From an uncultured Draconibacterium sp. (GTDB lineage Bacteria; Bacteroidota; Bacteroidia; Bacteroidales; Prolixibacteraceae): a DNA stretch of 64,000 bases. The translations under genes were made by a program, and so were the position numbers. Where the stretch lies: assembly GCF_913060805.1 (NCBI RefSeq), contig NZ_CAJXTC010000006.1, positions 124,001-188,000 on the forward strand. The letters are read 5' to 3'. The stretch's first letter is position 1; each line of letters begins with the position of its first letter. Below, piece by piece: positions 2,741-33,459 of the stretch. Below the pieces are notes generated by a model that saw only the letters and a program-made list of their open reading frames with translations, was not told the DNA's origin and ran no database searches.

Positions 2741-5101
2741 ATGATATCCGCCATGAAAAATTTACGATTTATATTCAGAATGTTTCGGCGAAATCCCTTG
2801 CTGGTTTTTGTAAACCTGCCCGGATTAGCCATCGGATTAAGTGCAGTATTGCTGTTGTCGGTTTACCTGAAACACGAGTTAAGTTACGACCAGCATTTTA
2901 AAACAAAAAACAATGTTTTAAGACTCTACAACGCAGTTTCCGAAGAAGGCAATATTACAAATTGGGGAATCTGTTTGCGCAGTTCTTACACTGAAATTCC
3001 GTCGAGAGTTCCGGAAATACAATCGGCCACACAAATTTACAGAGGATGGGGAACAACAGCGGAATACGAGAAACAAAAATTCCCCAACTTGCAATTGCTG
3101 TTTGCTGATAAGGATTTCTTCGATGTATTCGGATTGGAGTTAGTTCAGGGAAACACCAACGACGCTTTGGTGGGTGAAAACAACGTGGTAATTACCCGGT
3201 CAACTGCACTGAAAGTTTTTAACACCATTGATTGTGTTGGCAGGGTTTTGAATGTTTCGGAGGAGCCGGCTACAGTAACGGGTGTAATTAATGATTTACC
3301 CAATAACACGCACTTTAATTTCGATTTACTGGTGTCGATGCAGACGGTTCATCCCGAAAATTGGGGAGGGCTGGAACTTTATACCTATTTCAGAATTGAT
3401 GAAAATGCTGACTTAGCTACGGTTGGCGAAAAAATTGCTGTTGCAAACAACGAGTTGATGAAACCATGGGGTGAACCGTTTAACGCGACTGTAGAAACCG
3501 GAACAGAACTGCTGGCAGATTTGCATTTGCATACCGTTGTTGATTTCGATCTTTCGCCAAAAGCCAATTTAACGCACGTGTTTATTATTGCCGGCATTGC
3601 CTTTTTGGTGCTGCTAATTGCCATGGTAAACTACATTAACCTGTATGTTTTGCATGGCGAAAAACGGATCGCCGAAATTGCCTCACGAAAATCGTTGGGA
3701 GCCACGCAAAGCACGTTGAGTCGTTTATTCTTTACCGAAACATCTGTGATCAGTCTATTATCGTTTGTGCTGGCGTTGGGATTAACAGCACTTGTTCAGC
3801 CTGCGTTTGCCTCATTAATGAAAAGCCAGATCGAGCTGTCGGACATGTTTTCCCTCTCCGGCATTTTATTGGTTTTGGCAATTCTAACAGTTTTAATCTT
3901 TGTTTCGGGTGCTTATCCAAGTTATTATTTGTCGAAATTAAATCTGGTAAATGCACTCAAAGGAAAATCAACTAAAGTTAAACGCAAAAGCACTTTGTCG
4001 CGCATTGCGGTTATTTCGCAGTTTTCCATTTCGGTTTTTCTCATTAGTGCGCTGGTAATTGTATTTGCCCAGGTGAATTATTTGAAAGAAGTACCACTTG
4101 GTTTTAATCCCGAGAATGTAATCGGCATTACCAACCTGAATAACGAGGTGCGAAGAAGTGCGTCGTCCATTGCTGATGATTTAACGCAACTGGCATTTGT
4201 AGAAGATGTAGCTTTTTCTGATCATGGCATGGGGCAGGGTTCAAGCGGACAGGGAATAAAAAAATATGGCGATCCTGGAAATTTGAATAGCGTAAATGAG
4301 TACCGGGTACATCCCGGATTTGCAAAAACCATGCAGTTGGAATTGGTTGATGGTCGTTATTTCAATAAATCGGAAGCAGATAGAAATGCGGTAATTCTTA
4401 ACGAAGCGGCTGCAAAAATGTTGGGAGCTGATGTAAAAGTTGGGAGCTTGGTTCAAATGTTCAAAGAACCCTTAACGGTAATCGCCATTGCAAAAGATTT
4501 TTACTACATCGATCATCCCGGGGCTACCGTCGAACCTCTTGTTATTACAAACAAACCCAACAACGTAAATAACCTTTATGTGCGAACAAAAACCGGAAGC
4601 AATTCTGCTCAGCTGGCCCAAATTGATGAGGTAATTAAAAGTTATTCGCCGGAACTTATTGTTAGCAAGTTTCAGTTGACTGATGTTTACGCCAATAAAT
4701 ACACCAACGAAGAGCGTATGATAAAACTGGTTACTACCGGTGCCGGACTGGCGATCATCATCAGTTTTATTGGTTTAATGGCACTTTCGGTACTAAATGT
4801 AAACCGCCGGAAAAAGGAGATTGGAATACGGAAAGTAATTGGCAGTACCGAAACACAGGTTGTTCGTGAGCTGCTGAAAGAAACGTTTGTCCTCGTACTG
4901 ATTGCCATTGTTATCGCTTTTGTTGGCACCTATTTTACCATGCATCAATGGTTACAACATTTTGTAAACCGCGTTTCCATTAGTCCTGTATACTTTCTGC
5001 TTAGTGCTGCATTTGCACTGTTTATAGCTTTTATGGCAGTGGGCTGGCAAAGTTGGCGGGCTGCTACGCGAAATCCTGTCGAAGCCTTACGGTATGAGTA
5101 A
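2741..5101 (+). CDS. MacB/FtsX-type ABC permease P1
   Basis: This 786-aa inner-membrane protein has the architecture shared by the whole array. TM1 is at ~19-43, then a MacB_PCD-like extracytoplasmic domain to ~275. Four TM helices follow (~280-305, 332-352, 372-397, 422-448), then a second extracytoplasmic domain (~450-660) and three final TM helices (~665-690, 715-735, 746-768), i.e. two FtsX halves. The motif following TM1 is SYDQHFKTKNNVLRLY. A second ATG at 2753 is an alternative start. P1 differs from most of its neighbours in the last membrane region (HQWLQHFVNRVSISPVYF), yet its final 18 residues, WQSWRAATRNPVEALRYE, are identical to theirs, which suggests a recombination junction near base 5046. 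It directly follows ATPase 1. Confidence 0.92.
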   Translation: MISAMKNLRFIFRMFRRNPLLVFVNLPGLAIGLSAVLLLSVYLKHELSYDQHFKTKNNVLRLYNAVSEEGNITNWGICLRSSYTEIPSRVPEIQSATQIYRGWGTTAEYEKQKFPNLQLLFADKDFFDVFGLELVQGNTNDALVGENNVVITRSTALKVFNTIDCVGRVLNVSEEPATVTGVINDLPNNTHFNFDLLVSMQTVHPENWGGLELYTYFRIDENADLATVGEKIAVANNELMKPWGEPFNATVETGTELLADLHLHTVVDFDLSPKANLTHVFIIAGIAFLVLLIAMVNYINLYVLHGEKRIAEIASRKSLGATQSTLSRLFFTETSVISLLSFVLALGLTALVQPAFASLMKSQIELSDMFSLSGILLVLAILTVLIFVSGAYPSYYLSKLNLVNALKGKSTKVKRKSTLSRIAVISQFSISVFLISALVIVFAQVNYLKEVPLGFNPENVIGITNLNNEVRRSASSIADDLTQLAFVEDVAFSDHGMGQGSSGQGIKKYGDPGNLNSVNEYRVHPGFAKTMQLELVDGRYFNKSEADRNAVILNEAAAKMLGADVKVGSLVQMFKEPLTVIAIAKDFYYIDHPGATVEPLVITNKPNNVNNLYVRTKTGSNSAQLAQIDEVIKSYSPELIVSKFQLTDVYANKYTNEERMIKLVTTGAGLAIIISFIGLMALSVLNVNRRKKEIGIRKVIGSTETQVVRELLKETFVLVLIAIVIAFVGTYFTMHQWLQHFVNRVSISPVYFLLSAAFALFIAFMAVGWQSWRAATRNPVEALRYE

Positions 5102-5156
5102 GGCGAAGATCCTCGATAGCAAAGCGTATCGGGATGAGGCGCTCAGATATGAATAA
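5102..5156 (+). repeat. Vestigial duplicated 3' tail after P1
   Basis: Directly after the P1 stop is a damaged second copy of the gene end: CGAAGATCC, then a short hairpin (TCGATAGC...GTATCGGGAT), then GAGGCGCTCAGATATGAATAA at 5136-5156, which reads E-A-L-R-Y-E-stop. Removing the hairpin gives a degenerate RNP-EALRYE tail like those ending the permease genes. Confidence 0.75.
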
Positions 5157-5197: not shown

Positions 5198-7522
5198 ATG
5201 AAGCATTATTTCTTAACGATTTGGAGTTCTATACGAAAAGCAAAACAAACCAACTTTTTCAATTTAATTGGCTTGTCTGTTTCGTTTGCTGCATTTGTAT
5301 TATTGTCGATTTATTTGTGGAATGAATTTACTTTCGACCAGTACAATAAGAATTACAAGCAAGTATACATGCTTGAAATGAATTCGGATGAAAATGGAGA
5401 AAATGAATCGACTTATTTTCTGCCAAATCCGATGGCCGATTATTTTGCCGAGAACATTCCTGAATTGTCTACGCTTTGTTCGTTTGCCTGGGGAGCCAGT
5501 ACTTATTCTTTGGAAAAGGATGGAGAAGCAAGCGTGAATCTTGCAACCAGGGCCGTTGATTCCACTTTTGCCCGGATGTTCGATTTGCAAATGAAGTTTG
5601 GAGACCTGAATACCTTGGCACAAAATGATGGAATTATTCTTTCTGAAACAGGAGCTAAAAGGTTATTCGGGAATGAAAATCCTGTTGGAAAAACCATCTA
5701 TGCCAATTTTCAATCGCCGTTTGTAATTGAAGGAGTATTTTTTGATCTTCCGCAAAATAGTTCGTATCACGAATACGATGCTTTTTGCTCTTTCCCAACC
5801 GCTTCATGGGCAACCAATTGGTCGGAATATAGTTTTAATCACTATTACCAATTGCCCGAAAATGCTTCCTTGTCCGAGGTAATTCTTAAAATGAATGAAT
5901 CGCAAGGTGTAAAAGATTGGAAAGAAAATTCGACCGAGGATTTTTCCTTTAGTTTGTTACCGATAAAAGAAAAACATTTTAATAACCAAATGGGTAGTGG
6001 GAACCTGCTTTTTACCCGCTCGCTGGTTGTAGTTGCCGCTTTGTTGCTATTTATGGCCTTTGTTAACTACCTGAATTTTGCCATTGCCAATGCTCCCAAA
6101 CAGCGTAAAGCTGTCAATGTTCGTCAGGTTTTAGGAGAAACGAAAAAGCATTTATTGTTCTTAGCTATTTCAGAGTCGGTAATAATAATTACCCTGGCGT
6201 TTATTGGAAGTATCATACTGAGTTCTGTCGTGACTTATTTCTGGCCGGATATTTTTTCGTACGAATTTCATCTGAAAAATTACGTTTGGATTTTTGCCTT
6301 ATGCTGGATACTGGTAGTTCTTTTAGGAGCTGTAATTGCTGTGATACCGGCCCGGATGAATGGAAATATGGCTCCGGCAAGGGCTTTAAGCGGAAATGTG
6401 CCGCAAGGTCAGCAACGTAATTTCACCGGAAAGGTTTTAACGGTTCTGCAATTCGGAATCTCTATTTTTCTGATTATTGGTGTGTTGTTTATTGAAAAGC
6501 AGGTTCGTTTTTTCAAAAACTACGACCTGGGATTTGATAAAGAAAACATTGTGGTCGTTGATATTACTCAGTCGATACAAGAACACGAAGATGCGTTTGT
6601 AAGTGAATTAGAAAAGAATGGTAATATCACGGACTATGCTTTTTCTCAATTTATACCCGGTGGAGTAGGAATGGGCTGGGGGCGTGACATTGATGGTAAG
6701 CGTGTTAGCTTCAAGTGCTGGCCGGTTGACGAGCGCTATATGAATTTTATGGGATTTGAGATTGTGGATGGAAGGGCATTTTCAGAGAATCTTAAGTCGG
6801 ACGAAAATAATTTCATAATGAATGAGGCTGCCTTAAAAGATTTTGGCTGGGAAACCGAATATTTGGGCAAACAGATTCCGGGATTTGGCTTTAGCGGTAC
6901 TTTAATTGGCGTTGTAAAAGACATGAAATATGCATCGTTAAGAGAAGAGGTTACACCCCTGGCATTTTGGCTCACCGAAACACGCCACAATAAACTAAGC
7001 GTAAAAATATCGGGGCAAAATGTTTCTAATACAATTGCACATATTAATAACGTTTATAGCCAATTCGAGAAAAAACGTACGTTTAATTATCGTTTTCTGG
7101 ATGAACAGTTAAACAGTATGTACAAGGCTGAGGAGAGACAAGCTCAACTCATTTCTATATTTTGTATTATTTCAATCATCATATCTGTTATTGGAGTTTT
7201 AGGATTGGCAATTTTACTTTCAGAATACAGAATAAAAGAAATAGGAATACGAAAAGTAAATGGAGCCAATATAGGCGAAATTATAGCCTTGCTAAACAGT
7301 GGATTTATTAAGTCGATTTTAATTGCCTCAATTATTGCCTGCCCACTTGGTTATTACGCCATGAATAAATGGCTCGAAAACTTTGCCTACAAAACAACTT
7401 TGAGCTGGTGGATTTTTGCCCTGGCCGGAGCGTTAGCATTGGGAATTGCATTATTAACCGTGAGTTGGCAAAGCTGGCGGGCCGCAACTAGAAACCCGGT
7501 TGAAGCTTTACGATATGAGTAA
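5198..7522 (+). CDS. MacB/FtsX-type ABC permease P2
   Basis: A 774-aa permease with the same eight-helix, two-domain layout as P1: TM1 at ~20-42 (FFNLIGLSVSFAAFVLLSIY), a mid-protein TM block at ~268-433, and a C-terminal block from ~648. The post-TM1 motif is divergent here (TFDQYNKNYKQVYMLE). The C-terminal block carries KEIGIRKVNGANIGEI and then the shared MNKWLENFAYKTTLSWWIF segment and WQSWRAATRNPVEALRYE ending. The middle of this shared block (NSGFIKSILIASIIACP) is more diverged than in P3-P6. It starts 42 bp after the P1 tail remnant. No duplicated tail follows its own stop, and P3 begins 28 bp on, so co-transcription is likely. Confidence 0.92.
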   Translation: MKHYFLTIWSSIRKAKQTNFFNLIGLSVSFAAFVLLSIYLWNEFTFDQYNKNYKQVYMLEMNSDENGENESTYFLPNPMADYFAENIPELSTLCSFAWGASTYSLEKDGEASVNLATRAVDSTFARMFDLQMKFGDLNTLAQNDGIILSETGAKRLFGNENPVGKTIYANFQSPFVIEGVFFDLPQNSSYHEYDAFCSFPTASWATNWSEYSFNHYYQLPENASLSEVILKMNESQGVKDWKENSTEDFSFSLLPIKEKHFNNQMGSGNLLFTRSLVVVAALLLFMAFVNYLNFAIANAPKQRKAVNVRQVLGETKKHLLFLAISESVIIITLAFIGSIILSSVVTYFWPDIFSYEFHLKNYVWIFALCWILVVLLGAVIAVIPARMNGNMAPARALSGNVPQGQQRNFTGKVLTVLQFGISIFLIIGVLFIEKQVRFFKNYDLGFDKENIVVVDITQSIQEHEDAFVSELEKNGNITDYAFSQFIPGGVGMGWGRDIDGKRVSFKCWPVDERYMNFMGFEIVDGRAFSENLKSDENNFIMNEAALKDFGWETEYLGKQIPGFGFSGTLIGVVKDMKYASLREEVTPLAFWLTETRHNKLSVKISGQNVSNTIAHINNVYSQFEKKRTFNYRFLDEQLNSMYKAEERQAQLISIFCIISIIISVIGVLGLAILLSEYRIKEIGIRKVNGANIGEIIALLNSGFIKSILIASIIACPLGYYAMNKWLENFAYKTTLSWWIFALAGALALGIALLTVSWQSWRAATRNPVEALRYE

Positions 7523-7550: not shown

Positions 7551-9938
7551 ATGCTGAAACATTACTTAAAATACGCAATAAGAAATTTCCGAAGCAACCG
7601 CTTAATTTTTGCCGGAAGCATTCTGACTGTTTTCCTGTGTGCGCTTTGTATATCGTTACTATTTACCTACGTGCACAACGAGCTTACCATGGACGATTTT
7701 CATAAGCGCGAGAAAGATATTTACATGGTAACTTATAAAGATGCGCCTGAAAGTAAACCTGAAGTCTGGGAAGCAAGTTTGTTTTTTGATTTTGAATATG
7801 CCAAGTATCCTGAAGTTGAAGCGTATGTAACGCTGAAAAAGTATCAGAAAGGCGAAATAAAATTTACTTATAACGAGTCGTCGTTTTCTCCGGCCGGAAT
7901 GGTAGCCGACAGTACATTCTTCGAAGTATTCGATTTTGAACTGGCACGGGGAGACAAAGAAAATGTAATGCATGATCCGGAAGCACTGATCTTTTCAAAA
8001 GAATTTGCTCGAAAGGTTTTTGGCGACGAAGACCCGATCGGTAAAAATGTTGTGGTAACAACCCACAATCAAAAACTATATACAGTAAAAGGAATATTGG
8101 CGGATATTCCATCCAATAGTTCTATGGAATTTGATTTTTTGATTCCTGACCATTCAATGCGATACAGCAGAATGGGAGGTGATTTTATTCTGGCCGGTAA
8201 TGGTTTTAATAAGGCTGATTTCGCGGAGAAACTTAATCAGGTTGGGCAACAGAATGAACGCTATAAAGACGGTATTTCTGATGTTATTGCCTTTAATAAA
8301 ATGTACTTTAACAATGCAGGAGTTGATACCATCGGAGTTGTTTCAAAACACGGCGATAAAAAGAGTATTCAAGTGCTTTGGGCAATCATGGGAGTAATTT
8401 TCCTGATTTCGTTGCTTAACTTCTCGAACCTTCAAATTATAAATATCAATTCATCGGTAAAGAATATAGGAATCAATAAAATTACAGGAGCCGGTAGCCG
8501 GCATATCTTTTATCAAAAGCTCTCTGAAATTGTTTTGCTGATTTTTATTGCAGCCGTTTTAATTACCATGACTTTTAAGGTAGTCGTTCCTTATTTTAAT
8601 CAAATAGCCGGAGTGGACTTGAACCCATCAGTTTGGCAAATTTTTGTACTGAATGTTGTCGTTCTTTCAGCGTTGATTCTGGTGTCAATGGTATATCCGT
8701 CGCTGGTTTATCTGAAAATTCCGATTACAAACAGCTTAAAAGATCAGGTTTTTGGCACGTCGAAACTGGCCGGTAGAAATGTGGTTGCAACCGTTCAGTT
8801 TGCCCTGTCGTTTGTGTTGCTCATTGCTTCAATAGTTGTTTTCAGACAATTGGATTTGATGCTTGATAAAGACCTTGGGTTTACTGCCGAAAATACCATT
8901 TGTACCCAGATGTTTCATGAGCCGCATTTTGATGACGCAATGACTAATGAGGAGAAGAGACAAAAATATGATGCCTACCAAAATAGCTTTCAGTTTGTAA
9001 AAAATGAACTGGAAAGTAACAGTTCTGTAAAAGCCTTTTCGTTGGGACATGCCCCAATCGATCCTTTTGAAATGTCGTGGAAATTAAATGGTGGGACAAA
9101 AGATTATACAACAGAAAAATCGCTTACTGTAACTCCTGAATATGCAAACCTATTAGGACTTGAGTTAGTTGAAGGAAGGTTTTTTGATCGCGATATAGAT
9201 AAAAGCCGCGATGAAAAACTGGTAATAAACGAAGCCGCGATGAAGTATTGGGGAATTACTGATATTTCAACACAACAAATATTAAATAAATCATGGTCAA
9301 GAAATGGGGGATACGAAATTATTGGCGTGGTTAAAGATTTTAATTTTGAGCACCTTTCAGTGCGTCCTCAGCCGCTGATGATCTTGTTTTTTGAAGATAT
9401 GGAAGCTAACTTTCTGATTCAATTCGAGGAGGGAGCAACTCAATCGGGATTACAATTTGTGGAGGGACTTTTTACAAAAAACAATCCGGGCGAGGCATTT
9501 CAATACACTTTCCTCGCCGACGAAATAGAAACGCTCTACCAAAAAGAAAAACGACTGAGCCAGATTTACATCATCTTTACTATAATCGCCTTCCTGATTT
9601 CGGCAACCGGGCTGTTTGCCATTTCGTTGTACGATACCCGCAAACGAACCAAAGAAATTGGAGTTAGAAAAGTAAACGGGGCGAAAGTTTCGGAGATCCT
9701 GGCGCTGTTAAATAAAGACTTTCTGAAATGGGTAGCCATTGCCTTTGTAATTGCCTGCCCGATTGCGTACTACACCATGTACAAATGGCTGGAGAACTTT
9801 GCTTACAAAACCAACTTGAGTTGGTGGATATTTGCCCTGGCCGGAGTAATGGCTTTGGGAATTGCATTGTTAACCGTTAGTTGGCAAAGTTGGCGGGCTG
9901 CTACACGAAATCCTGTCGAGGCACTCAGATATGAGTGA
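7551..9938 (+). CDS. MacB/FtsX-type ABC permease P3
   Basis: A 795-aa inner-membrane permease. The N-terminus MLKHYLKYAIRNFRSNRLIF leads into TM1, followed by TMDDFHKREKDIYMVT, the array's version of the D-x2-F...IYRV motif. The second extracytoplasmic domain contains IIGVVKDFNFEHLS, a motif recurring in most array members (GVVKDF). The end carries KEIGVRKVNGAKVSEILALL, MYKWLENFAYKTNLSWWIF and the common NPVEALRYE terminus, one of the closest matches to P4-P6. The stop is TGA and is followed without a gap by a second, hairpin-interrupted copy of the tail (9939-9983). Substrate unknown; the known relatives export lipoproteins, antibiotics or peptides, or transmit mechanical force without transport. 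Confidence 0.92.
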   Translation: MLKHYLKYAIRNFRSNRLIFAGSILTVFLCALCISLLFTYVHNELTMDDFHKREKDIYMVTYKDAPESKPEVWEASLFFDFEYAKYPEVEAYVTLKKYQKGEIKFTYNESSFSPAGMVADSTFFEVFDFELARGDKENVMHDPEALIFSKEFARKVFGDEDPIGKNVVVTTHNQKLYTVKGILADIPSNSSMEFDFLIPDHSMRYSRMGGDFILAGNGFNKADFAEKLNQVGQQNERYKDGISDVIAFNKMYFNNAGVDTIGVVSKHGDKKSIQVLWAIMGVIFLISLLNFSNLQIININSSVKNIGINKITGAGSRHIFYQKLSEIVLLIFIAAVLITMTFKVVVPYFNQIAGVDLNPSVWQIFVLNVVVLSALILVSMVYPSLVYLKIPITNSLKDQVFGTSKLAGRNVVATVQFALSFVLLIASIVVFRQLDLMLDKDLGFTAENTICTQMFHEPHFDDAMTNEEKRQKYDAYQNSFQFVKNELESNSSVKAFSLGHAPIDPFEMSWKLNGGTKDYTTEKSLTVTPEYANLLGLELVEGRFFDRDIDKSRDEKLVINEAAMKYWGITDISTQQILNKSWSRNGGYEIIGVVKDFNFEHLSVRPQPLMILFFEDMEANFLIQFEEGATQSGLQFVEGLFTKNNPGEAFQYTFLADEIETLYQKEKRLSQIYIIFTIIAFLISATGLFAISLYDTRKRTKEIGVRKVNGAKVSEILALLNKDFLKWVAIAFVIACPIAYYTMYKWLENFAYKTNLSWWIFALAGVMALGIALLTVSWQSWRAATRNPVEALRYE

Positions 9939-9983
9939 CGAAATCCCGACAGAATAGTCGGGGTCGAAGCACTTCGATACGAA
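9939..9983 (+). repeat. Vestigial duplicated 3' tail after P3, with a 15-bp hairpin insert
   Basis: CGAAATCCC (9939-9947) is followed by a 15-nt insert containing CCCGAC-agaata-GTCGGG (stem 9945-9950 with 9957-9962), then GTCGAAGCACTTCGATACGA plus A. Without the insert the segment reads R-N-P-V-E-A-L-R-Y-E, the exact end of the permeases. It differs by synonymous changes from the true end of P3, so it is not a simple recent tandem slip of P3 itself. Confidence 0.85.
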
Positions 9984-14669: not shown

Positions 14670-14703
14670 CGAAATCCCGATCGAAGCATTACGGTATGAG
14701 TAA
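14670..14703 (+). repeat. Vestigial duplicated 3' tail after P5
   Basis: CGAAATCCCG is followed by one extra A and then TCGAAGCATTACGGTATGAG with a TAA stop (14701-14703). Dropping the extra A gives R-N-P-V-E-A-L-R-Y-E-stop. The copy keeps its own stop codon, and its codons differ from those of the real P5 end (GCATTACGG here, GCACTCAGA in P5). It is therefore a tail from another array member or an older P5 tail. Confidence 0.88.
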
Positions 14704-17267: not shown

Positions 17268-17729
17268 ATGGCAAATACCTATACCCAAATGAATATACAT
17301 GCCGTGTTTTCGGTAAAAGGGAGAGGTAATTTTATTTCAGAAAAATGGCGGGATGAATTGTTCCGATACATGGCAGGAACATTAAAGGAAACCAAAAATT
17401 ATTCGCTGGCGGTAGGTGGTTACAAAGATCACATTCACATATTTTTTGAATTACACCCAACAATTTCTGTTTCCGATGTTTTGAAGAATGCAAAAGCCAA
17501 ATCATCGAAATGGATAAATGAAAAAGGATTTGTTGCCGGTAAGTTTGAATGGCAGGCTGGCTATGGAGCGTTTTCCTATTCTCGTTCTCAACGGAACAGA
17601 GTTATTCAATACATCATGAAACAAGAAGAACATCATCGGAAAGGTTCATTTAAAGATGAATATCTAACGTTGTTGAGAAGGAATGAAATAAAATATGAAG
17701 ATGCATATTTGTTCGAATTTTACGAATGA
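17268..17729 (+). CDS. IS200-like Y1 transposase (REP-associated, HUH type)
   Basis: A 153-aa single-domain protein of the Y1_Tnp (transposase_17) family, which cuts and rejoins single-stranded DNA at hairpins. The HUH metal motif is His55-Ile-His57 (KDHIHIFF), and the candidate nucleophile is Tyr115 in VIQYIMKQEEHH. The segments KFEWQAGYGAFSYSRSQ and the ending DAYLFEFYE are typical of the Bacteroidota group of these proteins. The gene is intact. No tnpB accompanies it, and the flanking hairpin repeats favour a REP-associated transposase (RAYT) over a classical IS200. It lies between permeases P6 and P7, so it probably arrived in, or reshaped, the array. Confidence 0.92.
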   Translation: MANTYTQMNIHAVFSVKGRGNFISEKWRDELFRYMAGTLKETKNYSLAVGGYKDHIHIFFELHPTISVSDVLKNAKAKSSKWINEKGFVAGKFEWQAGYGAFSYSRSQRNRVIQYIMKQEEHHRKGSFKDEYLTLLRRNEIKYEDAYLFEFYE

Positions 17730-20219: not shown

Positions 20220-20250
20220 CGAAATCCCGATTGAAGCTCTGTGGTACGAA
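20220..20250 (+). repeat. Vestigial duplicated 3' tail after P7
   Basis: CGAAATCCCG, one extra A, then TTGAAGCTCTGTGGTACGAA. Without the A this reads R-N-P-V-E-A-L-W-Y-E, i.e. the permease end with one Arg-to-Trp change (CTG-TGG in place of CTG-CGG). It begins at the base after the P7 stop codon, the same position as after P1, P3 and P5. Confidence 0.82.
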
Positions 20251-21586: not shown

Positions 21587-22402
21587 TTACTCAACAAACG
21601 TTGACGGCAGACTCATTAACTGGTACTGAATTGTTTTTGCCAGGCGGTAATTCCCGAATGAATTGGGATGTAAACGGTCGGTTTTGTCGTCCATAAAATA
21701 CTTTACATGCGAATCTTCCATGGGATAAAGTCCGCTGATCGAATACAAGTCGATCAGTGGAACGGCCCAAACTGAAGCCGCTTGTTTTAAAGTTGTTACA
21801 TAATCATCGATGTAAAAACCAAGGTCGTTGGAATAACTTTCTTCGGGCTGAACATTGGTTTCGCTAAAGGTTGAAAAACCTCTATGAATCGGCGTCATTA
21901 CAATAATTTGCTGATCGGGATAATTGGCTTTTAAAAAGGCCATTACTTTGTTAATCCGGCCACAAAAAGTAACGTCATCTTCATTCAGTGTCCGGTATTT
22001 TCGGGTAACCATTGTCCCGATATAATTAGTCGCCTTGGCTGTTTCGGTGTAAAAACTGCCCATCGGAGTGTTGTGGTTGTAATCGTTGGTGCCCGCAAAA
22101 ATCAGGATGGCATCCACATCTGTTCCATGTTCTTCTTTCAGTTTCAGTGCCTGCCCGTAAATGCCTGTCCATTGATGTCCGCTAATTCCATACACATAAG
22201 GTTCAATTCCCATCATTTTGGTCAGGTATTCCCAGTAAACTGTGCGTGGCGTATTGTCTCTCTCCCATTTTTGCGTCATCGAATCTCCAAGGAAAGCTAC
22301 CTTTTTGTTTTTCCATTGCGAATCCTGCAAAGTGGTCTCTTGCCCGAAAGCTGACAATATCAGCACTGAAAATAAAAGGATGGTAGCGGTTAAAGTTTTC
22401 AT
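21587..22402 (-). CDS. Secreted SGNH/GDSL-family hydrolase
   Basis: A 271-aa protein with signal peptide MKTLTATILLFSVLILSAFG. The SGNH blocks are clear: GDSMTQKW with the nucleophile Ser (block I, near residue 41), GISGHQWTG (block II Gly), FAGTNDYNH (block III, G-x-N-D) and DRLHPNSFGN (block V, the Asp and His of the catalytic triad). The expected reaction is hydrolysis of an ester, often deacetylation of a carbohydrate, outside the cytoplasm. The substrate cannot be named. It is the only gene on the minus strand inside the permease array and has no obvious partner; its start faces the upstream region of P8. Confidence 0.87.
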   Translation of the reverse strand: MKTLTATILLFSVLILSAFGQETTLQDSQWKNKKVAFLGDSMTQKWERDNTPRTVYWEYLTKMMGIEPYVYGISGHQWTGIYGQALKLKEEHGTDVDAILIFAGTNDYNHNTPMGSFYTETAKATNYIGTMVTRKYRTLNEDDVTFCGRINKVMAFLKANYPDQQIIVMTPIHRGFSTFSETNVQPEESYSNDLGFYIDDYVTTLKQAASVWAVPLIDLYSISGLYPMEDSHVKYFMDDKTDRLHPNSFGNYRLAKTIQYQLMSLPSTFVE

Positions 22403-25068: not shown

Positions 25069-25078
25069 ATTGAAAGAC

Positions 25079-27421
25079 ATGATTAAACATTTTATATTAA
25101 TAGCCTGGCGAAATATCAGAAGAAGGAAAACACTTTCTGCTATCCAGATTTTGTGCCTTTCGGTGGGGCTGGCAGCTTTTATTTTGGTTGCCCGCTATGT
25201 TCAATATGAAAAAGACTACGATAAGTTCAACGTAAATTTCGACCGGATTTATCGTGTTCAATCCTACAAAATAACCGATAGATTGGATGAAAGTGGGCAA
25301 ACCGTTATTCCGATGGCAAAATTCATCCGCGATAATGTCCCTGAGGTTGAGAATGCAATCGCTACCAACGAAATATGGAACGAGTATTTATCGCCCGATG
25401 AGGAGCGTGTTTTTAAGGAACAAACAGGACTAATTGTACCTTCTGAAATTTTTGATTTTTTCTCGTTTAAGTTGATTCGGGGAAATAAGGCGGATGTACT
25501 CGACGATCCCAATTCTATCGTATTGAGTGAAACGATGGCCGAACGATATTTTCCCGGGCAGGATGCGATGGGAAAAATTATTCTGGATGAAGAAAAACAG
25601 GAGCTTCGTGTAACGGGGATTATGCAGGATATTTCTGAACAGTCATCACTTGCAGCCACCTATTTTCGATCGAATGCCGACCTTGTAAAAAGATACAATG
25701 ATAACTGGTACAATAGTTCATTCGAAATCTTTGTCTTACTTAAACCCGGTGTTTCGGCCGGCACTGTAAATGATAAAATTGAGGATGTGATTATGCGATA
25801 CGATAAAGAATCGAAACGGATCGCATATCTGCAACCATTAAGCAATTTGCATTTGAAAGAATATGTCCAAGACGATCGGGGCTCAGTGATTTACTTCTTT
25901 TCTTTTATCGGAATTTTAACTCTCTTGCTGGCTTGCGTAAGTTTTATGAATCTTACTACATCGTTTTCAACCATGCGCGCTGTTGAAATTGGTATTCGAA
26001 AAGTGTCGGGAAGCAACCGAAATATTTTACGGGTGCAGTTTCTTACAGAAGCAGTTTTGATAGCACTAATTTCGCTGGCATTTGCGGTGTTTTTGGCTTA
26101 TCTTTTACTGCCCTTGTTTAATACCGTTGTAAACCGAAATATCGACCTGCAGTTATTGCAAAATCCTTTGTTTGTGCTGTTTTTGCTGGCTACCGTAGTA
26201 GTAACCGGGTTTATTGGCGGAAGTTATCCCGCCTTATTCATCTCGCGTTTAAAGCCGGTAAATGTTTTAAAAGGTCGAGGTTCTTTCAACAAAGGCAAAG
26301 TGCGTGGATTAACCGCCATGGTTTACCTTCAGTTTATACTTTCGGTTGTGCTGTTAACGTCCAGTATCTGGATGTACAAACAGGTTACATTCCTGAAAAA
26401 CAAAGACCTTGGCTACACAAAAGATAACCTGTTGTATTGTAAGTTGCCGAGTGTTAATACCACGGTTTCGTATCAGCGGGTGAGGGAGCGGATTCTTGAA
26501 AATCCCGGAATCGAGAACATGACAATATCGATTAATTCGCCGCTGCATTCGAGTTGGGGATCGCGGGTTCAATACGAGGGAGGCCCGACCGACGATCACG
26601 CGTATGCACGCTGGAACCAGGCCGACGAAAATTACCTGAATACCATGAGCATGACTTTGGCAGAAGGACGCAACTTTTCAACTGATTATTCTGCTGAAAC
26701 CAAAACATGCCTGATCAACGAAACCGCGGCAAAACAGTTTGGCTGGCAAGAACCTGTAGGGAAGTGGTTGGAAATGAATGGTGGTCACTTTTCGGTAATC
26801 GGAGTGATAAAAGATTTTAATAACGACGACGTACATAATCCGATAATTCCGTATGTATTGTTGTATCGGAATGAAGGTTTTGCGAGCAATAACGACCTCA
26901 CTTTTAAAGTGAATCCGAATACAACATCAAGCAGTCTTGCGCATATTAACTCGGTTTTGAACGAGGCTTTTCCGAACATACTTTTTGAAGTAAATGGTTA
27001 CGATGTGGGAACTTACCGTGTGGCACTTGAAATTTGGACCAGCGCGAAAAATACATTTGCATTTTTTACAATAATGGCGGTACTGATTGCTGCAATGGGA
27101 TTATTTGGCTTGGTGGTTTTTGCCTCTCAGCGTCGTGTAAAAGAAATTGGAATTCGCAAAGTTCAGGGAGCGCAGGCTGCACAAATATTGCCACTCATCA
27201 CGCGGCAGTTTATTATTCTGGTTGTGGCGGCAAATATTATTGTTTATCCATTGGCCAATTTCCTGGAGAACGTAACACCCGGGCATTTTAAATACCAGTT
27301 TACCGTTTTTGATCTGCTGCTTGTGTTAGGAATTTCCGTTGTTGTAACTCTACTATCGAGTGGATACCAGGCATTAAAAGCGTCGTTGTTAAATCCGGTT
27401 GAGGCGCTCAGATACGAATAA
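25079..27421 (+). CDS. MacB/FtsX-type ABC permease P9
   Basis: About 780 aa counted from the ATG at 25079. An in-frame ATG at 25046 lies inside the end of P8 and would add an implausible hydrophilic leader, so the later start is chosen; it begins MIKHFILIAWRNIRRRKTLS. After TM1 comes DYDKFNVNFDRIYRVQ. The first FtsX loop is EIGIRKVSGSNRNILRVQFL. The C-terminal membrane block differs from the common one: it has KEIGIRKVQGAQAAQILPLI and ENVTPGHFKYQFTVFDLLLV in place of NKWLENFAYKT. Even so, the gene still ends NPVEALRYE. It has not undergone the C-terminal homogenisation seen in P2-P6. Confidence 0.92.
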   Translation: MIKHFILIAWRNIRRRKTLSAIQILCLSVGLAAFILVARYVQYEKDYDKFNVNFDRIYRVQSYKITDRLDESGQTVIPMAKFIRDNVPEVENAIATNEIWNEYLSPDEERVFKEQTGLIVPSEIFDFFSFKLIRGNKADVLDDPNSIVLSETMAERYFPGQDAMGKIILDEEKQELRVTGIMQDISEQSSLAATYFRSNADLVKRYNDNWYNSSFEIFVLLKPGVSAGTVNDKIEDVIMRYDKESKRIAYLQPLSNLHLKEYVQDDRGSVIYFFSFIGILTLLLACVSFMNLTTSFSTMRAVEIGIRKVSGSNRNILRVQFLTEAVLIALISLAFAVFLAYLLLPLFNTVVNRNIDLQLLQNPLFVLFLLATVVVTGFIGGSYPALFISRLKPVNVLKGRGSFNKGKVRGLTAMVYLQFILSVVLLTSSIWMYKQVTFLKNKDLGYTKDNLLYCKLPSVNTTVSYQRVRERILENPGIENMTISINSPLHSSWGSRVQYEGGPTDDHAYARWNQADENYLNTMSMTLAEGRNFSTDYSAETKTCLINETAAKQFGWQEPVGKWLEMNGGHFSVIGVIKDFNNDDVHNPIIPYVLLYRNEGFASNNDLTFKVNPNTTSSSLAHINSVLNEAFPNILFEVNGYDVGTYRVALEIWTSAKNTFAFFTIMAVLIAAMGLFGLVVFASQRRVKEIGIRKVQGAQAAQILPLITRQFIILVVAANIIVYPLANFLENVTPGHFKYQFTVFDLLLVLGISVVVTLLSSGYQALKASLLNPVEALRYE

Positions 27422-27648: not shown

Positions 27649-30066
27649 ATGTTTAGAAATTACCTGAAAGTAGCACTTCGCAGCTTGTTGAAAAACAAGC
27701 TTTTCACTTTTATAAATATTACCGGTTTAGTAATTGGAATGGTAGTGGCTCTGCTCATTTTTAACTATGTAAGTTTCGAGCGCAGTTACGATTCGATGCA
27801 TAAAAATGCGGATCGTATTTATCGTGTGGAAAGTAAATTCTACGAAGGTGAAACACTTACCGACGACTGGGCAACAGCGTCGTTTGGTTACGCAAGTGCC
27901 ATGAAAGAAAATATTCCCGGCATTCAGGATTACGTGCGAATTGCCATTAACAGTACCGAGCAAATGGTAAGTTACGAAGAGGAAAAATCGCGCGAAAATA
28001 CGGTTGTTGTTACCGAACCTTCCTTCTTTTCCATTTTCTCGTTTAATTTGGTTGACGGGGATGCGTCAACAGCGCTTAGCAGTCCGAATAAAGTCGTGAT
28101 CTCGCAGCTGGCAGCGCATAAGTTTTTTAAGGATGAAAATGCGTTGGGTAAAATTCTAAAGTTCAGAACGCTGAACCAGGCTTATGAATGCGAAGTGACT
28201 GGTGTGCTGGAAGATATTCCGGCGAACAGCCACTTTAATTTCGATTATTTTGTGTCATGGGATACGCAACCCGACTGGATTAAAAACTTCTGGTACCTGC
28301 ACGAAACTTACTCGTATGTGCAGCTGGAACCCGGAATTTCGCCCGCAAGTATCGAGAAGGCTTTTCCGGCCATGTCAGAAAAGTATAAAACCGAAGATGC
28401 GCTAAAAAATAAAACCTGGGCCATTGAATTACAACCACTGGCAGCTATTCATCTAACGCCGCAAAAACAATACGAACGCGAAGCCAAAGGAAACGCGAAG
28501 GCCGTAAAAGCTTTGATTCTCATCGCGCTGGCTATTCTTCTTATCGCCTGGATTAATTACATCAATCTTACCACCTCGCGTTCGCTTGAACGTGCCCGCG
28601 AAGTGGGAGTACGAAAGGTGTCGGGCGCGCAGAAAAAGCAACTGATCATTCAGTTTTTAATTGAATCAACCCTGGTAAATGTGGTTGCGCTGGCCGTTTC
28701 AATCGGATTGTTTATTTTGCTAATTCCTTCGTTTAATTCGTTTATCGGCAAAAACATTGGCTTTTCAATTTTGTACATGCCGCGCTTTTGGGTGTTGATC
28801 ACCCTGTTTCTTTTAACGGGCATCATACTTTCCGGATTGTATCCGTCGCTTGTTCTTTCGAATGTAAAACCTGCAATTATTCTGAAAGGAAAATACCTGA
28901 ATTCGCAACGTGCAGGCATGGTACGAAAAGGTTTGGTGGTTTTTCAGTTTGTGGCGTCGCTGGTTTTAATTTGCGGAACCCTGATCGTTTATGCGCAGCT
29001 CAAATACATGCAGAATCAACCGCTTGGGATAAATATTGATAAAACTCTGGTCGTGAAATTTCCGGCACAAACTCCAAATCTAATGGAGAAAGTAATGAGT
29101 TTCAAACGCCAGTTAAAAGATCTGCCCGATGTAAGAAATGTGGCAATTTCAAACGCGGTGCCGGGAATGGAAGTGGCCTTTTTTGCATCGAATCGTTTGT
29201 TTGAAGATGCAGCAAAACAGAATCGACTGTACGAAATGCAAACGGTTGACTACGATTTTATCGACACTTACGGGATGAATATTCTGGAAGGAAGAGGTTT
29301 TGACAAAACATTTACCAACGATATTAGAAAGGTTATTCTGAATGAAGAAACGGTGAAACAACTGGGCTTTGCGAACAATGCCGATGCCATTGACCAGAAG
29401 GTTTTAATTGAAACAGTGGAAGAACCGTACCAGGTAATTGGCGTGGTTGAAAATTACCACCAGCAATCGCTCAATAAAGCTTATACACCGATTATGATGA
29501 TCATGTACAACAGTATCGGGTGGCTGCCACCAAAATATTTATCTATGAAAATATCGGGCGTTGATGTTGCTTCGGCTTCGGGAAAAGTAAACGAAATCTG
29601 GAATCAGTTTTTCCCCGATTCAACTTTCGATTATTTCTTTTCCGATCAGTTTTACGAAGCGCAGTATTCGCTCGACAGAAAGTTTGCTACCATCTTTGGG
29701 TTGTTTGCTTTGATGGCCATTTTTATCGCCTGTTTGGGTTTATGGGCACTGGCATTGTTTGCCGGATTAATCCGCAAAAAGGAAATGGGTGTTCGGAAAG
29801 CTTTGGGAGCATCAACACCAAGCTTGTTTTACAGTCTTTCCAGCGAGTTTATCTATCTAACCTTGTACTCGGCAGTATTAGCCATTCCGCTGGCCTTTTT
29901 TATAATGAATGAATGGCTGAAGTCGTACGCATTCAGAACCGATATGAATTGGTGGTTTTTTGCTTTGCCAATTGTGGTGCTGGTGTTGATCGCTTCTTTA
30001 ACAGTGAGTTATCAAACACTAAAAACAGCACATTCGAGTGCGGTGGATAGTTTAAAGTATGAATAA
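27649..30066 (+). CDS. MacB/FtsX-type ABC permease P10
   Basis: An 805-aa permease, the longest of the array. TM1 lies in INITGLVIGMVVALLIFNYV, followed by SYDSMHKNADRIYRVE. The first FtsX loop is REVGVRKVSGAQKKQLIIQF and the second KEMGVRKALGASTPSLFYSL. The C-terminus is unlike all the others (NEWLKSYAFRTDMNWWFFAL, ending SAVDSLKYE), so it has neither the shared membrane block nor the NPVEALRYE ending. The gene is framed by an exact 28-bp direct repeat (27534-27561 and 30165-30192), so it could behave as a cassette gained or lost by recombination (inference). ATPase 2 follows ~200 bp downstream. Confidence 0.92.
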   Translation: MFRNYLKVALRSLLKNKLFTFINITGLVIGMVVALLIFNYVSFERSYDSMHKNADRIYRVESKFYEGETLTDDWATASFGYASAMKENIPGIQDYVRIAINSTEQMVSYEEEKSRENTVVVTEPSFFSIFSFNLVDGDASTALSSPNKVVISQLAAHKFFKDENALGKILKFRTLNQAYECEVTGVLEDIPANSHFNFDYFVSWDTQPDWIKNFWYLHETYSYVQLEPGISPASIEKAFPAMSEKYKTEDALKNKTWAIELQPLAAIHLTPQKQYEREAKGNAKAVKALILIALAILLIAWINYINLTTSRSLERAREVGVRKVSGAQKKQLIIQFLIESTLVNVVALAVSIGLFILLIPSFNSFIGKNIGFSILYMPRFWVLITLFLLTGIILSGLYPSLVLSNVKPAIILKGKYLNSQRAGMVRKGLVVFQFVASLVLICGTLIVYAQLKYMQNQPLGINIDKTLVVKFPAQTPNLMEKVMSFKRQLKDLPDVRNVAISNAVPGMEVAFFASNRLFEDAAKQNRLYEMQTVDYDFIDTYGMNILEGRGFDKTFTNDIRKVILNEETVKQLGFANNADAIDQKVLIETVEEPYQVIGVVENYHQQSLNKAYTPIMMIMYNSIGWLPPKYLSMKISGVDVASASGKVNEIWNQFFPDSTFDYFFSDQFYEAQYSLDRKFATIFGLFALMAIFIACLGLWALALFAGLIRKKEMGVRKALGASTPSLFYSLSSEFIYLTLYSAVLAIPLAFFIMNEWLKSYAFRTDMNWWFFALPIVVLVLIASLTVSYQTLKTAHSSAVDSLKYE

Positions 30067-30264: not shown

Positions 30265-30933
30265 ATGATACAACTAAAAAACATTGACAAATACTACGAC
30301 GCAAAGTTTCAACGAACTTTTGTATTAAAAGGAGTAAACCTTGATATTGACCAAGGCGAATTTGTTTCAATTATGGGGCCTAGTGGTGCCGGTAAATCAA
30401 CCTTGCTGAATATTATTGGCTTTCTGGACGAACCTAACGAAGGCGAATATTTGTTCCTCGATCAGCCGGCTAATCAGTTAAAAGAAAAACAAAAGGTGCA
30501 GTACCACCGAAGTCACATCGGTTTTATCTTTCAGGCTTTTCACCTGATTGAAGAAATGAATGTGTACGAAAACATCGAAACGCCGTTGGTTTATCGTGGG
30601 GTAAAAGGCAAAGAGCGCAAAGCCATGGTTGCCGAAATGCTTGATCGTTTTAACATTGTGGCAAAAAAAGATCTGTTCCCAAGTCAGTTGTCGGGTGGTC
30701 AGCAACAATTGGTAGCTATTGCCCGTGCCATTGTAGGAAGTCCGAAACTTTTACTGGCCGACGAGCCTACCGGAAACCTGCACAGCGAGCAGGGACAAAT
30801 GATTATGGAATTACTGAAAAAACTAAACGATGAAGGAATGACGATTATTCAGGTAACGCACTCTGAAGAAAATGCAAAATACGGAAACCGTATAGTTCGT
30901 TTAAAAGATGGTTATTTGAAAGAAGACGAATAG
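30265..30933 (+). CDS. ABC transporter ATP-binding protein 2 (LolD/MacB type)
   Basis: A 222-aa ATPase with Walker A GPSGAGKST (38-46), Q-loop GFIFQAF (Gln90), signature LSGGQQQ (142-148), Walker B LLLADE (162-167) and H-loop VTHS (His199). Two positions differ from ATPase 1. The residue after LSGGQQQ is Leu where most have Arg, and the D-loop reads TGNLHS, with His in place of the usual Asp; this form is seen in some Bacteroidota homologues. The overall alignment with ATPase 1 is otherwise without gaps through the motifs. It lies between P10 and P11 and, like ATPase 1, is separated from the next permease by a long inverted repeat. It probably powers P11 and perhaps P8-P10. Confidence 0.92.
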   Translation: MIQLKNIDKYYDAKFQRTFVLKGVNLDIDQGEFVSIMGPSGAGKSTLLNIIGFLDEPNEGEYLFLDQPANQLKEKQKVQYHRSHIGFIFQAFHLIEEMNVYENIETPLVYRGVKGKERKAMVAEMLDRFNIVAKKDLFPSQLSGGQQQLVAIARAIVGSPKLLLADEPTGNLHSEQGQMIMELLKKLNDEGMTIIQVTHSEENAKYGNRIVRLKDGYLKEDE

Positions 30934-31032: not shown

Positions 31033-31050
31033 AACTTAATCAAGCAACAA

Positions 31051-33459
31051 ATGGTCCTGAAAGTCGTATTAAGAAACCTGCAAAAGCATCCGTTTTTAAA
31101 CCTGGTAAAAATAATTGGGCTGGGTTTGGCGTTGACGGGGATAATTTTCATCGCGCTGTTTTTGAAAAATGAGTTGACTTACGATTCGTTTCATCAGAAA
31201 TCAGCTCAAATCTATCGCTATACAACTACCGATCCCGATTTTTTCAGTGGGAAACATTTTGCCCGTGTTATCAATCCCGGGTACATTCACGAAATGAGTG
31301 ATGCGCTGCCGGAGGTGGAGGAGTTTGTCCGCTTGCGTCCGGTGCGTGGCGGTTTAATGAAATACGATGAGCGGTATTACAAAATTGCGCAGGCTTTTGA
31401 ATGCGACAGCACTTTTTTCAATGTTTTTGATGCAAAAATGTTGATTGGCAATAAAGAAACGGTGCTTGAAAATCCGGCATCGATGGTTGTTACTCAAAGC
31501 TTTGCTCAAAAGGTGTTTGGAGAAAGGAATCCGGTGGGCGAGGTGCTTACTTTACCATCCGGCCAGTATTACGGCGAGGACCAGGATTTTACCATTGCAG
31601 GTGTAATGGAAGACTTTCCGGCAAACAGTCACTTTCATCCCGATTTTGTGGCTACTCCGCTGGCTAATCAGTTTGCGTACGGTTGGGCATGGACTTACCT
31701 CGTTTTAAACGAAAATACTACGGTTGAGAATGTTACAGTAGGAATTTCCGATTACCTGAAAAACAATCGCGAAGCTAATCCGGAGGAAATGGATACCGAG
31801 GTGCATTTGCAACGGATTTCCGATATTCATTTAAACTCGCACAAACTCCGCGAGATAGAGGAAAACAGCAACATCCGAAACGTTTATGTGCTGGCCATTG
31901 CAGCTTTTATTTTGCTGCTTATTTCAATTAGTAATTACGCTAATCTGAATATCGGCATGAGCGGTTTCAGCGCAAAATACCTGTTTATAAATAAGCTGCT
32001 CGGCTCGTCGAAAAGTGCGGTGGTCAAGTATTTCTTTTTCGAGGGGATTTGTATTCTTGGGGCAGCCTTGTTGTTTACCGTTTTACTATCGGTGCCGGTT
32101 AATACCGGTGTCATTCGTTTTTATAAGCTGAATTTGCTGGCCGGCAATTCTACTACAATCGTTCTGTTAGTATTGGCATTCAGTTTACTATCGCTGGTTT
32201 TTGGAATGCTTCCGGTTCTGAAATCTGTATTCTCCTCCATTCGGTTGGGTGGAAACAGGAGCTCAGCCGTGGCGGTTCATCGAAATGGTGTGAGCCGTGT
32301 TCTGATTGTCTTTCAGTATGCTTTTTCCATTGCTTTAATTATTACCGTAATTGTTATTTCGCGGCAAACCAATTATGCGCTAAAACACAGTATGGGCGTG
32401 GAGCAAGACAATGTGCTTTGTTTTGAATCGGTTCATGCCAGCATTCAGCAAAAGTTTGGCGTGCTGAAAGAGGAGTTGCTGCAATACAACAGTATCGAGT
32501 CGGTTTCGGCGATGTTGGAACCGCCGGGTGGCGAGGCAAACGATATGTTTCCGTTTGAAATGGAAGGTTACGAATCGGAAAATCCGGAACAGAATTTTGA
32601 GAGCATCGGTGTTTTCCCCTGCGATTATTCATTTGCGTCAATATTCAACCTGCAGTTTTTGGCCGGAAATAATTTTACTGAAAACAATAAAGACAACGAA
32701 GGTTTGGGCGAATACATCATCAATAAAGCGGCGATGGAACGCTTGCATTATTCCAATCCGGATGAAATTATTGGCAAAGACTTTAAGTTGATTTTTTCCA
32801 CTCCGGGATCGGGAATTACCATTCCGAAAGGCAAGATTATTGGCGTGGTTGAAGATTTTCATTTATCAAGTTTACGGAAACAGGTAGAGCCGCTGGTACT
32901 TTTTAAACGCGATAAATTGTGGCTTTTAAACTTTGTGGTGTCGTTTAAACCCGGAATGAAAGAGGAAGCGCTGGCCGATATGAAAAAGGTGTGGGGCGAA
33001 CTGTTTCCTGAATATCCGTTTCAGTACGAGCATGTTAATGCCATGTATAAACGCGTGTACAAAGCCGAGTTGTTGCAGGCGCGTTTGCTATCGGTTTTCA
33101 CGCTTATTGCCTTGTTTATTTGTTCGATGGGATTGTTTGGCCTGGCGCTGATTATTACGCAAAACCGTACCAAAGAAATTGGTGTACGAAAAGTTAATGG
33201 TGCGCGCGTTTCAGAAATTCTTACGCTGCTGAATAAAGATTACATAAAATGGGTAGCGCTTGCGTTTGTAATTGCTTGTCCGGCGGCGTGGTTTGCCATG
33301 GATAAATGGCTCGAAAACTTTGCTTACAAAACCACTTTAAGCTGGTGGATTTTTGTGGTGGCCGGAGTTTTGGCGCTGGGAATTGCGTTGTTTACGGTTA
33401 GTTTTCAATCGTACAGGGCAGCCAGTCGAAATCCTGTTGAAGCCTTACGATATGAATAA
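31051..33459 (+). CDS. MacB/FtsX-type ABC permease P11
   Basis: An 802-aa permease, the last of the array. It begins MVLKVVLRNLQKHPFLNLVK, with TM1 in IIGLGLALTGIIFIALFLKN and the motif TYDSFHQKSAQIYRYT. The first FtsX loop is unusual (SAKYLFINKLLGSSKSAVVK). The C-terminal block is of the shared type with a few substitutions: KEIGVRKVNGARVSEILTLL, MDKWLENFAYKTTLSWWIF, then FQSYRAASRNPVEALRYE. The shared nucleotide stretch around ATAAATGGCTCGAAAACTTT is the same as in P2, P4, P5 and P6. That is notable because P11 lies about 16 kb from P6. It follows ATPase 2 and converges with the AraC-type regulator, 23 bp between stops. Confidence 0.92.
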   Translation: MVLKVVLRNLQKHPFLNLVKIIGLGLALTGIIFIALFLKNELTYDSFHQKSAQIYRYTTTDPDFFSGKHFARVINPGYIHEMSDALPEVEEFVRLRPVRGGLMKYDERYYKIAQAFECDSTFFNVFDAKMLIGNKETVLENPASMVVTQSFAQKVFGERNPVGEVLTLPSGQYYGEDQDFTIAGVMEDFPANSHFHPDFVATPLANQFAYGWAWTYLVLNENTTVENVTVGISDYLKNNREANPEEMDTEVHLQRISDIHLNSHKLREIEENSNIRNVYVLAIAAFILLLISISNYANLNIGMSGFSAKYLFINKLLGSSKSAVVKYFFFEGICILGAALLFTVLLSVPVNTGVIRFYKLNLLAGNSTTIVLLVLAFSLLSLVFGMLPVLKSVFSSIRLGGNRSSAVAVHRNGVSRVLIVFQYAFSIALIITVIVISRQTNYALKHSMGVEQDNVLCFESVHASIQQKFGVLKEELLQYNSIESVSAMLEPPGGEANDMFPFEMEGYESENPEQNFESIGVFPCDYSFASIFNLQFLAGNNFTENNKDNEGLGEYIINKAAMERLHYSNPDEIIGKDFKLIFSTPGSGITIPKGKIIGVVEDFHLSSLRKQVEPLVLFKRDKLWLLNFVVSFKPGMKEEALADMKKVWGELFPEYPFQYEHVNAMYKRVYKAELLQARLLSVFTLIALFICSMGLFGLALIITQNRTKEIGVRKVNGARVSEILTLLNKDYIKWVALAFVIACPAAWFAMDKWLENFAYKTTLSWWIFVVAGVLALGIALFTVSFQSYRAASRNPVEALRYE

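Follow-up and report, generated by a model that had tools for sequence, protein, structure and literature searches.

A Draconibacterium-like permease array whose near-constant 3' module is probably a motor-facing end and a recombination joint

Double FtsX permeases of the ADOP type (TIGR03434) form large paralogous families in Acidobacteria and are not known to have an adjacent ATPase. Integron arrays are fixed at one end and consist of variable, ordered cassettes that come from a shared pool; their hallmarks are a tyrosine integrase and attC-type recombination sites. MacAB-TolC is characterized by an ATPase fused to a dimerising four-helix permease, and DarBCD is the darobactin exporter. YbbAP-TesA of E. 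coli has a fused pseudo-dimeric FtsX/MacB-type permease of ~800 amino acids and a separate ATPase. PMC12646458 describes TesA, the partner of YbbAP, as a hydrolase; YbbP as having ten helices in all, including a linking helix pair, with coupling helices between TM2/3 and TM8/9; and two ATPases per permease.

We analyzed a stretch of 64,000 nucleotides (G000:C6:124001-188000), called the window throughout, from a genome of 5.48 Mb. The host is a sediment bacterium with a Draconibacterium-like genome; the adaptor in the window shares 97-98% identity with its counterparts in Draconibacterium mangrovi, D. sediminis and D. orientale. The original prediction, made from the window's sequence, had claimed eleven intact permeases together with one adaptor, one TolC-type gene and two ATPases. 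All of these are present at the locus, the permeases as 11 open frames of 767-805 amino acids. At the head of the locus, a histidine kinase and a sigma-54-type response regulator lie upstream and divergent, followed by the OEP/TolC-type gene, the adaptor, ATPase 1 and the permeases. The features are listed below in window coordinates; "tail" denotes the last 53 codons plus the stop.

1..410, + strand, 3' end of TolC-type outer membrane efflux gene, start upstream of the window (Pfam OEP 69 bits; frame and stop)
436..1716, + strand, periplasmic adaptor, MFP/HlyD type (RND_mfp 148.9 bits, over cut-off; DarC 178.6 bits, below)
1891..2589, + strand, ATPase 1, MacB/LolD/FtsE type (ABC_tran; DarD 284.3 bits, below cut-off 375)
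2741..5101, + strand, P1, first permease, type T3 (adjoins ATPase 1 in 8/8 genomes with T3)
5129..5156, + strand, vestigial second tail end in P1-P2 spacer (nhmmer 12.8 bits; sequence)
5198..7522, + strand, P2, cassette permease (core 94% DNA identity to G009 orthologue; 3' end replaced)
7361..7522, + strand, P2 tail
7551..9938, + strand, P3, cassette permease
9777..9938, + strand, P3 tail
9939..9983, + strand, vestigial tail end behind P3 (12.1 bits for 9962-9983; sequence)
10002..12335, + strand, P4, cassette permease, type T1
12174..12335, + strand, P4 tail
12366..14669, + strand, P5, cassette permease (modelled structure)
14508..14669, + strand, P5 tail
14671..14703, + strand, vestigial tail end behind P5 (20.3 bits)
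14755..17157, + strand, P6, cassette permease
16996..17157, + strand, P6 tail
17268..17729, + strand, X1, IS200-like Y1 transposase (Pfam Y1_Tnp)
17829..20219, + strand, P7, permease with different tail, type T5 (adjoins X2 in 5/7)
20221..20250, + strand, vestigial tail end behind P7 (13.5 bits)
20582..21583, + strand, X2, DUF4097 protein
21587..22402, - strand, X3, GDSL lipase/acylhydrolase
22693..25068, + strand, P8, permease with class-A tail, type T0
24907..25068, + strand, P8 tail
25046..27421, + strand, P9, permease with different tail (start probably ATG at 25079)
27649..30066, + strand, P10, permease with different tail, type T4 (adjoins ATPase 2 in 6/8)
30265..30933, + strand, ATPase 2 (DarD 272.5 bits, cut-off 375)
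31051..33459, + strand, P11, last permease, type T2 (adjoins ATPase 2 in 9/10)
33298..33459, + strand, P11 tail
33483..34643, - strand, D1, AraC-type regulator (locus border in five genomes)

Pfam MacB_PCD and FtsX domains were found in P1, P7 and P11, the three permeases scanned. A search of the genome with the FtsX model placed all eleven genes above the cut-off, with two matches each in P1-P10 and one in P11. An AlphaFold2 model of P5 (110 rows) had a mean pLDDT of 89.6, and its best matches in the PDB by Foldseek were YbbAP, a pneumococcal ABC permease, MacB and LolCDE. The domain matches, the FtsX search and the fold of P5 thus all indicate an FtsX-type permease with a MacB-like periplasmic domain, the combination that marks type VII ABC systems, and both ATPases in the locus are of the MacB/LolD/FtsE kind. 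Each permease is a fused pseudo-dimer, for which the helices of the P5 model suggest 8 transmembrane segments and two periplasmic domains.

The array resembles each of the described systems in part. YbbAP was the best structural match (9ge6; E 3e-17, TM 0.52) and shares the fused permease and the separate ATPase; the P5 model, however, has eight long helices compared to ten in YbbP, and here the permeases form arrays with an adaptor and a TolC gene. The adaptor, the TolC-type gene and the FtsX and MacB_PCD domains are shared with MacAB-TolC, but in the array the ATPases are separate genes and the permeases are of double length and present in 7-35 copies. The NCBIfam models for DarC and DarD were the top matches of the adaptor and the ATPases, and DarB was second for P1, P2 and P7; unlike DarBCD, the array has many permeases, and all scores fell under the curated equivalog cut-offs (the two ATPases 284.3 and 272.5 of 375 bits, the adaptor 178.6 of 450, and P1, P2 and P7 82-115 of 700). 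The top NCBIfam match of these three permeases was ADOP, at 189-277 bits against a subfamily cut-off of 622; here, in contrast to ADOP, ATPases are adjacent and the genes lie in one array. As in integron arrays, variable ordered cassettes with a fixed end come from a shared pool, whereas the joint here would be the coding sequence of the gene's own 3' end. No integrase was found among the genes scanned (a subset of the frames); hairpins were seen by eye in some spacers, and similar ones occur elsewhere in the genome. No description of such permease arrays was recognised in the open-licence literature by titles and abstract openings, which is weak evidence of absence.

Searches for other kinds of element gave little. 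PADLOC returned nothing for P5, the adaptor, X1 or X2; ATPase 1 matched models, which we read as generic ATPase matches. No Rfam family matched in window positions 1-36000. A regulon study ties sigma-54 to FtsX-like permeases (PMC12316311). Sigma-54 promoters were considered and set aside: a strict pattern gave 2 matches over all loci read, one within a permease and one upstream of an array, and a relaxed scan, run on six loci, matched at scattered places, among them a site upstream of TolC in both the window's genome and G005.

The C-termini of the window's permeases were then compared. P2-P6 had been said to share their last 53 residues with one to three differences; the near-identity is real, but the pairs differ at 1-4 positions. 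P4/P5 and P5/P6 each differ at 1, exactly as described, as do P2/P5, and P2/P3 and P3/P4 differ at 4. P8 and P11 are close to this group (7-10 differences) and differ from each other at 14; P7, P9 and P10 lack this version of the tail, again in agreement with the original prediction, and P1 has only the last 18 residues in common with it. The N-terminal parts are strongly diverged, as claimed, with 18-28% identity among permeases. Over the last 60 codons, P2-P6 have 78-86% DNA identity, and codons for the same residue are identical in 50-67% of cases; the near-identity is therefore a protein-level fact. The longest exact DNA runs in this segment (P4/P6 37 nt, P5/P6 35, P4/P11 34, P1/P7 27) were longer than those in simulations in which the protein and its codon usage were preserved (each with p at most 0.003, uncorrected for 55 pairs).

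A search with the C-terminus over 21 genomes (the window's own, 12 of the genus and 8 of the order) gave matches in 19, and locus regions were read from ten other genus genomes (G001 and G011 left out). The comparison with relatives proposed in the original prediction revealed a variable array, with 7-35 permeases per run across ten genus genomes. Full-length permeases per stretch numbered 7 in G005, 8 in G003, 9 in G002, 11 in G004 and in the window, 12 in G009, 15 in G008, 19 in G006, 21 in G007 and 23 in G012. G007 has one further, frame-broken gene, and its stretch stops soon past ATPase 2. These counts leave out permease frames of <700 residues, including the two pieces of the broken G007 gene; frames short of the C-terminus were left out of a tail tabulation. 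ATPase 1 opens the run and ATPase 2 closes or nearly closes it in ten genomes (the window, G002-G009 and G012), with 7-23 permeases from one to the other, and searches with both ATPases as queries found no third ATPase within the runs. A T2 permease lies directly past ATPase 2 in nine genomes, not in G004. Among the eleven genomes read, X2 was on the ATPase-2 side of the array in nine; it lay on the main run in G010 and was not found in G004. G006 has an extra ATPase-like gene beyond its adaptor and TolC-type gene. G010 has 35 full-length permeases on one contig and 23 on three other contigs; ATPase 1 is on the same contig as the run and ATPase 2 on a different one.

Two further observations concern the distribution of such runs. 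Contigs C22 and C122 of G010 (L075, L076, L077) carry more runs, of 6 and 9 permeases, with no neighbouring ATPase in the stretch read. Two Emcibacter MAGs (L163, L164), assemblies named as an alphaproteobacterium, contain a related adaptor (38% identity) and the same kind of permeases, by either transfer or mis-binning.

Grouped by single linkage at 50% N-part identity, the 196 permeases that reach 700 residues fell into 84 N-terminal types; two of the 196 are singletons that lie elsewhere in the window's genome. The median best N identity was 29% within genomes and 75% between genomes. Class A, defined by an identity of at least 75% to the typed consensus over the last 56 residues, comprised 150 of the 196. 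Neighbours were seldom conserved: the ten genes of type T1 (P4), spread over nine genomes, have ten different upstream neighbours, with type T8 downstream in three. For 105 class-A orthologue pairs (N identity at least 70%), the downstream permease was the same in 5, different in 83 and absent in 17, so that the type was kept in 5 of the 88 pairs having a downstream permease in at least one genome. With border genes included, class-A pairs kept the upstream neighbour in 33/105 and the downstream one in 17/104, compared to 36/56 and 21/57 for pairs without the tail (three mixed pairs left out). That the interior order of the array has been reshuffled, with its ends largely fixed, is well supported by these gene orders.

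Synonymous identity distinguished single cassettes from their flanks. Among the 24 of 66 genome pairs listed, the values for cassette versus flanks were 0.92 versus 0.62-0.67 in G002/G012, 0.81 versus 0.50-0.60 in G002/G008, 0.81 versus 0.49-0.55 in G006/G007 and 0.75 versus 0.40-0.52 in G010/G012. Some cassettes were far closer between species than the adaptor, the ATPases, X2 and D1, and others in the same genome pairs were not. Because single cassettes are much more similar between species than their flanks, cassettes move horizontally; hidden paralogy was rejected as a source of the high similarity, since it would give less similarity than the flanks, not more. Acquisition of cassettes from other species of the genus is well supported by these comparisons. 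The N-parts of 165 orthologue pairs averaged 84% protein and 64% synonymous-codon identity, and the cassettes therefore look like constrained, working genes. The earlier idea of a repertoire, in which the permeases would be exporters or sensors, fits with a genus-wide cassette pool.

The original prediction had further proposed that conversion or 3'-end exchange homogenises the C-terminal module, with a fall in dS between paralogues. In its simple form this fall was not seen: mean tail DNA identity was 0.775 within and 0.776 between genus genomes, slightly higher within in 8/11 genomes, and synonymous sites inside tails mostly differ. Since mean tail identity is equal within and between genomes, recent homogenisation is rare and conversion slow, and the near-identity of the proteins is due in large part to purifying selection. 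Exchange itself is real, as shown by synonymous breakpoints, distance decay, near-identical tails and lineage-specific tails, so the homogenisation holds only in part. Four close orthologue pairs lost identity between the core and the last 50 codons (G000 P2/G009 0.94 to 0.77; G002_06/G012_07 0.95 to 0.82; G002_05/G008_10 0.92 to 0.78; a fourth pair 0.93 to 0.84); the contrary class-A pair G002_01/G009_12 hardly drops (0.96 to 0.93). DNA identity between close orthologues declines over the last 130-270 bases and is gone past the stop. Synonymous codons of 75 pairs whose core identity was at least 0.84 were scanned by maximum chi-square (1000 permutations; p<0.01); a drop in the last 110 codons was found in 17/42 class-A pairs versus 2/33 others, and a rise in none. 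Twelve other breakpoints were significant: nine, all in class-A pairs, were 3' drops located 111-188 codons before the end, and the remaining three lay near the 5' end in non-class-A pairs. The single-contig genomes G005, G007 and G012 argue against alignment or assembly errors as the source of the breakpoints. Across the whole set, orthologues were no more similar than unrelated pairs in the last 50 codons and much more similar farther upstream. The last 50-100 codons are, to judge from these alignments, uncoupled from N-type.

Tail similarity followed position and lineage. Array neighbours at most 2 positions apart had more similar tails (+0.0195 DNA and +0.029 synonymous, p 0.0005 each), and the control codons showed no such decay with distance (p 0.51 and 0.90). 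Tails counted as near-identical, with an identity of at least 0.90 across 150 nt, occurred in 9/1695 pairs within genomes versus 4/9213 between. Tail loss was not significantly associated with a change of downstream neighbour (5 vs 83 pairs, p 0.50). Because the same gene can occur in several orthologue pairs, the pairs are not independent, and p-values are optimistic. In directed comparisons of N-part orthologues (at least 40%) between different genera or loci, with the Draconibacterium loci L087-L092 left out, an own-genome paralogue had the more similar tail in 196/312; in the control segment the number was 8. Trees built with FastTree from 153 permeases (58 columns for the tail, branch supports unused, one Draconibacterium permease per type) gave 1 change on the tail tree and 5 on the N-part tree for 15 Flavobacteriaceae tails in five loci, and 29 and 51, respectively, for Draconibacterium. 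Concerted evolution is thus visible as synonymous breakpoints and as similarity by position or lineage over orthology, and is invisible in the within-genome mean.

The junctions between genes were also informative. Spacer similarity tracked the downstream gene (p 1.4e-8; 8/19 over the null's 95th percentile), and no relation to the upstream gene was found (p 0.37; 1/24). When unrelated upstream genes preceded orthologous downstream genes, their codons 8-25 from the end were more alike (p 1e-4 and 1e-3), with no excess in the last 8 codons (p 0.60). The spacer and tail pattern is what crossovers in successive tails would leave; the absent excess in the last 8 codons fits this less well. A degraded second tail end (VEALRYE-stop) on the same strand was found in 27/187 post-stop regions, at four sites in the window and in 23 further regions of genus genomes, compared to 0/935 single-base-shuffled regions and 0/187 reverse complements. 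Judged by eye, many of them have a hairpin, variable in sequence, that separates the NP codons from the VEAL codons. We read these vestigial tail ends as putative junction scars.

REP-like hairpins (CGAAATCCCGA-loop-TCGGG) are scattered over G000 (C13:16476, C33:14416, C1:73512, C7:157947, C10:79075 and others; L167-L177), and several begin with the same CGAAATCC as the tail. Insertion at a specific site, the spacer hairpin, was not taken as the main reading, because similar hairpins elsewhere in the genome had no tail remnants on inspection by eye. The Leu CTC codon of the tail lies in a DNA motif that is conserved in the genus (67% vs 7% background); this was rejected as a general recombination site, since CTC is used by 28/66 tails in other loci and 0/15 in Flavobacteriaceae.

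In the P5 model the conserved end comprises a helix at 672-680, whose position makes it the second coupling helix, followed by two long helices and a short one at the C-terminus. A C-terminal minor coupling helix contacts the ATPase in MacB, according to PMC5985334. By analogy with MacB and YbbP the tail is probably the motor-facing end. We infer that the permeases use shared ATPases; if P7, P9 and P10, which are without the tail, work with the same ATPases, the tail would not be obligatory.

We consider it probable, at roughly 0.7, that the locus encodes a type VII ABC system, with a regulator pair, TolC, adaptor and two ATPases, in which the permease genes are cassettes of an array shuffled by recombination, the constant 3' module being a probable motor-facing end and a recombination joint. 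The module, comprising the second coupling helix, the last two long helices and the C-terminal minor coupling helix, would be held near constant by purifying selection, probably through the need to fit shared ATPases, and because it is constant it would also serve as a homology joint. Crossovers or conversion tracts in it, mostly in the last 15-100 codons, would add, remove or exchange whole genes, each together with the spacer upstream of it. The N-part of ~650-700 residues would change in one piece, with the motor-facing end staying compatible. The cassettes would come from other species of the genus, and the array ends would stay largely fixed. The agent would be homologous recombination, and the outcome a changing repertoire of export or envelope-extraction pumps.

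Other explanations were weighed against these data. Ordinary purifying selection, by which the C-terminus is conserved through contact with shared ATPases and is never exchanged, accounts for high protein identity with about half of the synonymous codons different. It also agrees with the finding that FtsX C-termini match the tail in 65/149 genomes of the order, a weak form of the observation that the original prediction had named as speaking against its own conversion idea, the same C-terminus in single-copy permeases elsewhere. Among the matches listed, most outside the window's genome have 40-79% identity, with 81-96% in six genomes, one of which (G060) has a single tail match at 87%. Selection on protein, however, would not scramble synonymous sites in the tail alone of genes otherwise 92-95% identical, and gives no account of the synonymous distance decay or of tails that follow lineage across N-types; as the sole explanation it is very improbable. 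Within-genome gene conversion alone, swapping tails while the order changes by separate duplication, transfer and loss, is a doubtful but not negligible reading. The excess of near-identical tails within genomes, the greater similarity of near neighbours and the lack of a significant link between tail loss and a new neighbour all agree with it, but conversion of tails alone does not predict that the spacer and the preceding gene's distal tail travel with the downstream cassette.

We think it unlikely that the array is a dedicated integrase-free cassette-capture system, in which tail, hairpins and vestigial ends would together make up a recombination site capturing N-parts from the genus pool in frame with a universal motor-facing end. 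A different function is also conceivable, though we hold it rather improbable: the permeases might act in the fashion of YbbAP-TesA, lifting different lipophilic molecules from the inner membrane for secreted hydrolases, with no drug export. YbbAP is the top fold match, a GDSL lipase lies within the window's array, and four of the seven other non-permease array genes scanned are hydrolase-like (a metallophosphoesterase, an SMP-30 protein and two alpha/beta hydrolases; the other three are DUF4932/DUF4933). Yet the adaptor and TolC gene at the locus head are export-pump-like, and the hydrolase genes vary between genomes and are few relative to the permeases. Hydrolase-like genes in or at the edge of arrays were noted at L066:18907-19941, L050:4557-5552, L053:7369-8331, L057:5632-6546 and window 21587-22402.

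If the shuffled-array reading is true, nature has here a modular system that needs no integrase: species exchange the variable part of an ABC permease, which faces the environment, and keep the energised end constant. The spread of new transport specificities, and whether one ATPase pair can drive dozens of permeases, would become open to test, and the array supplies numerous natural junctions with which chimeric transporters could be studied in laboratory strains.
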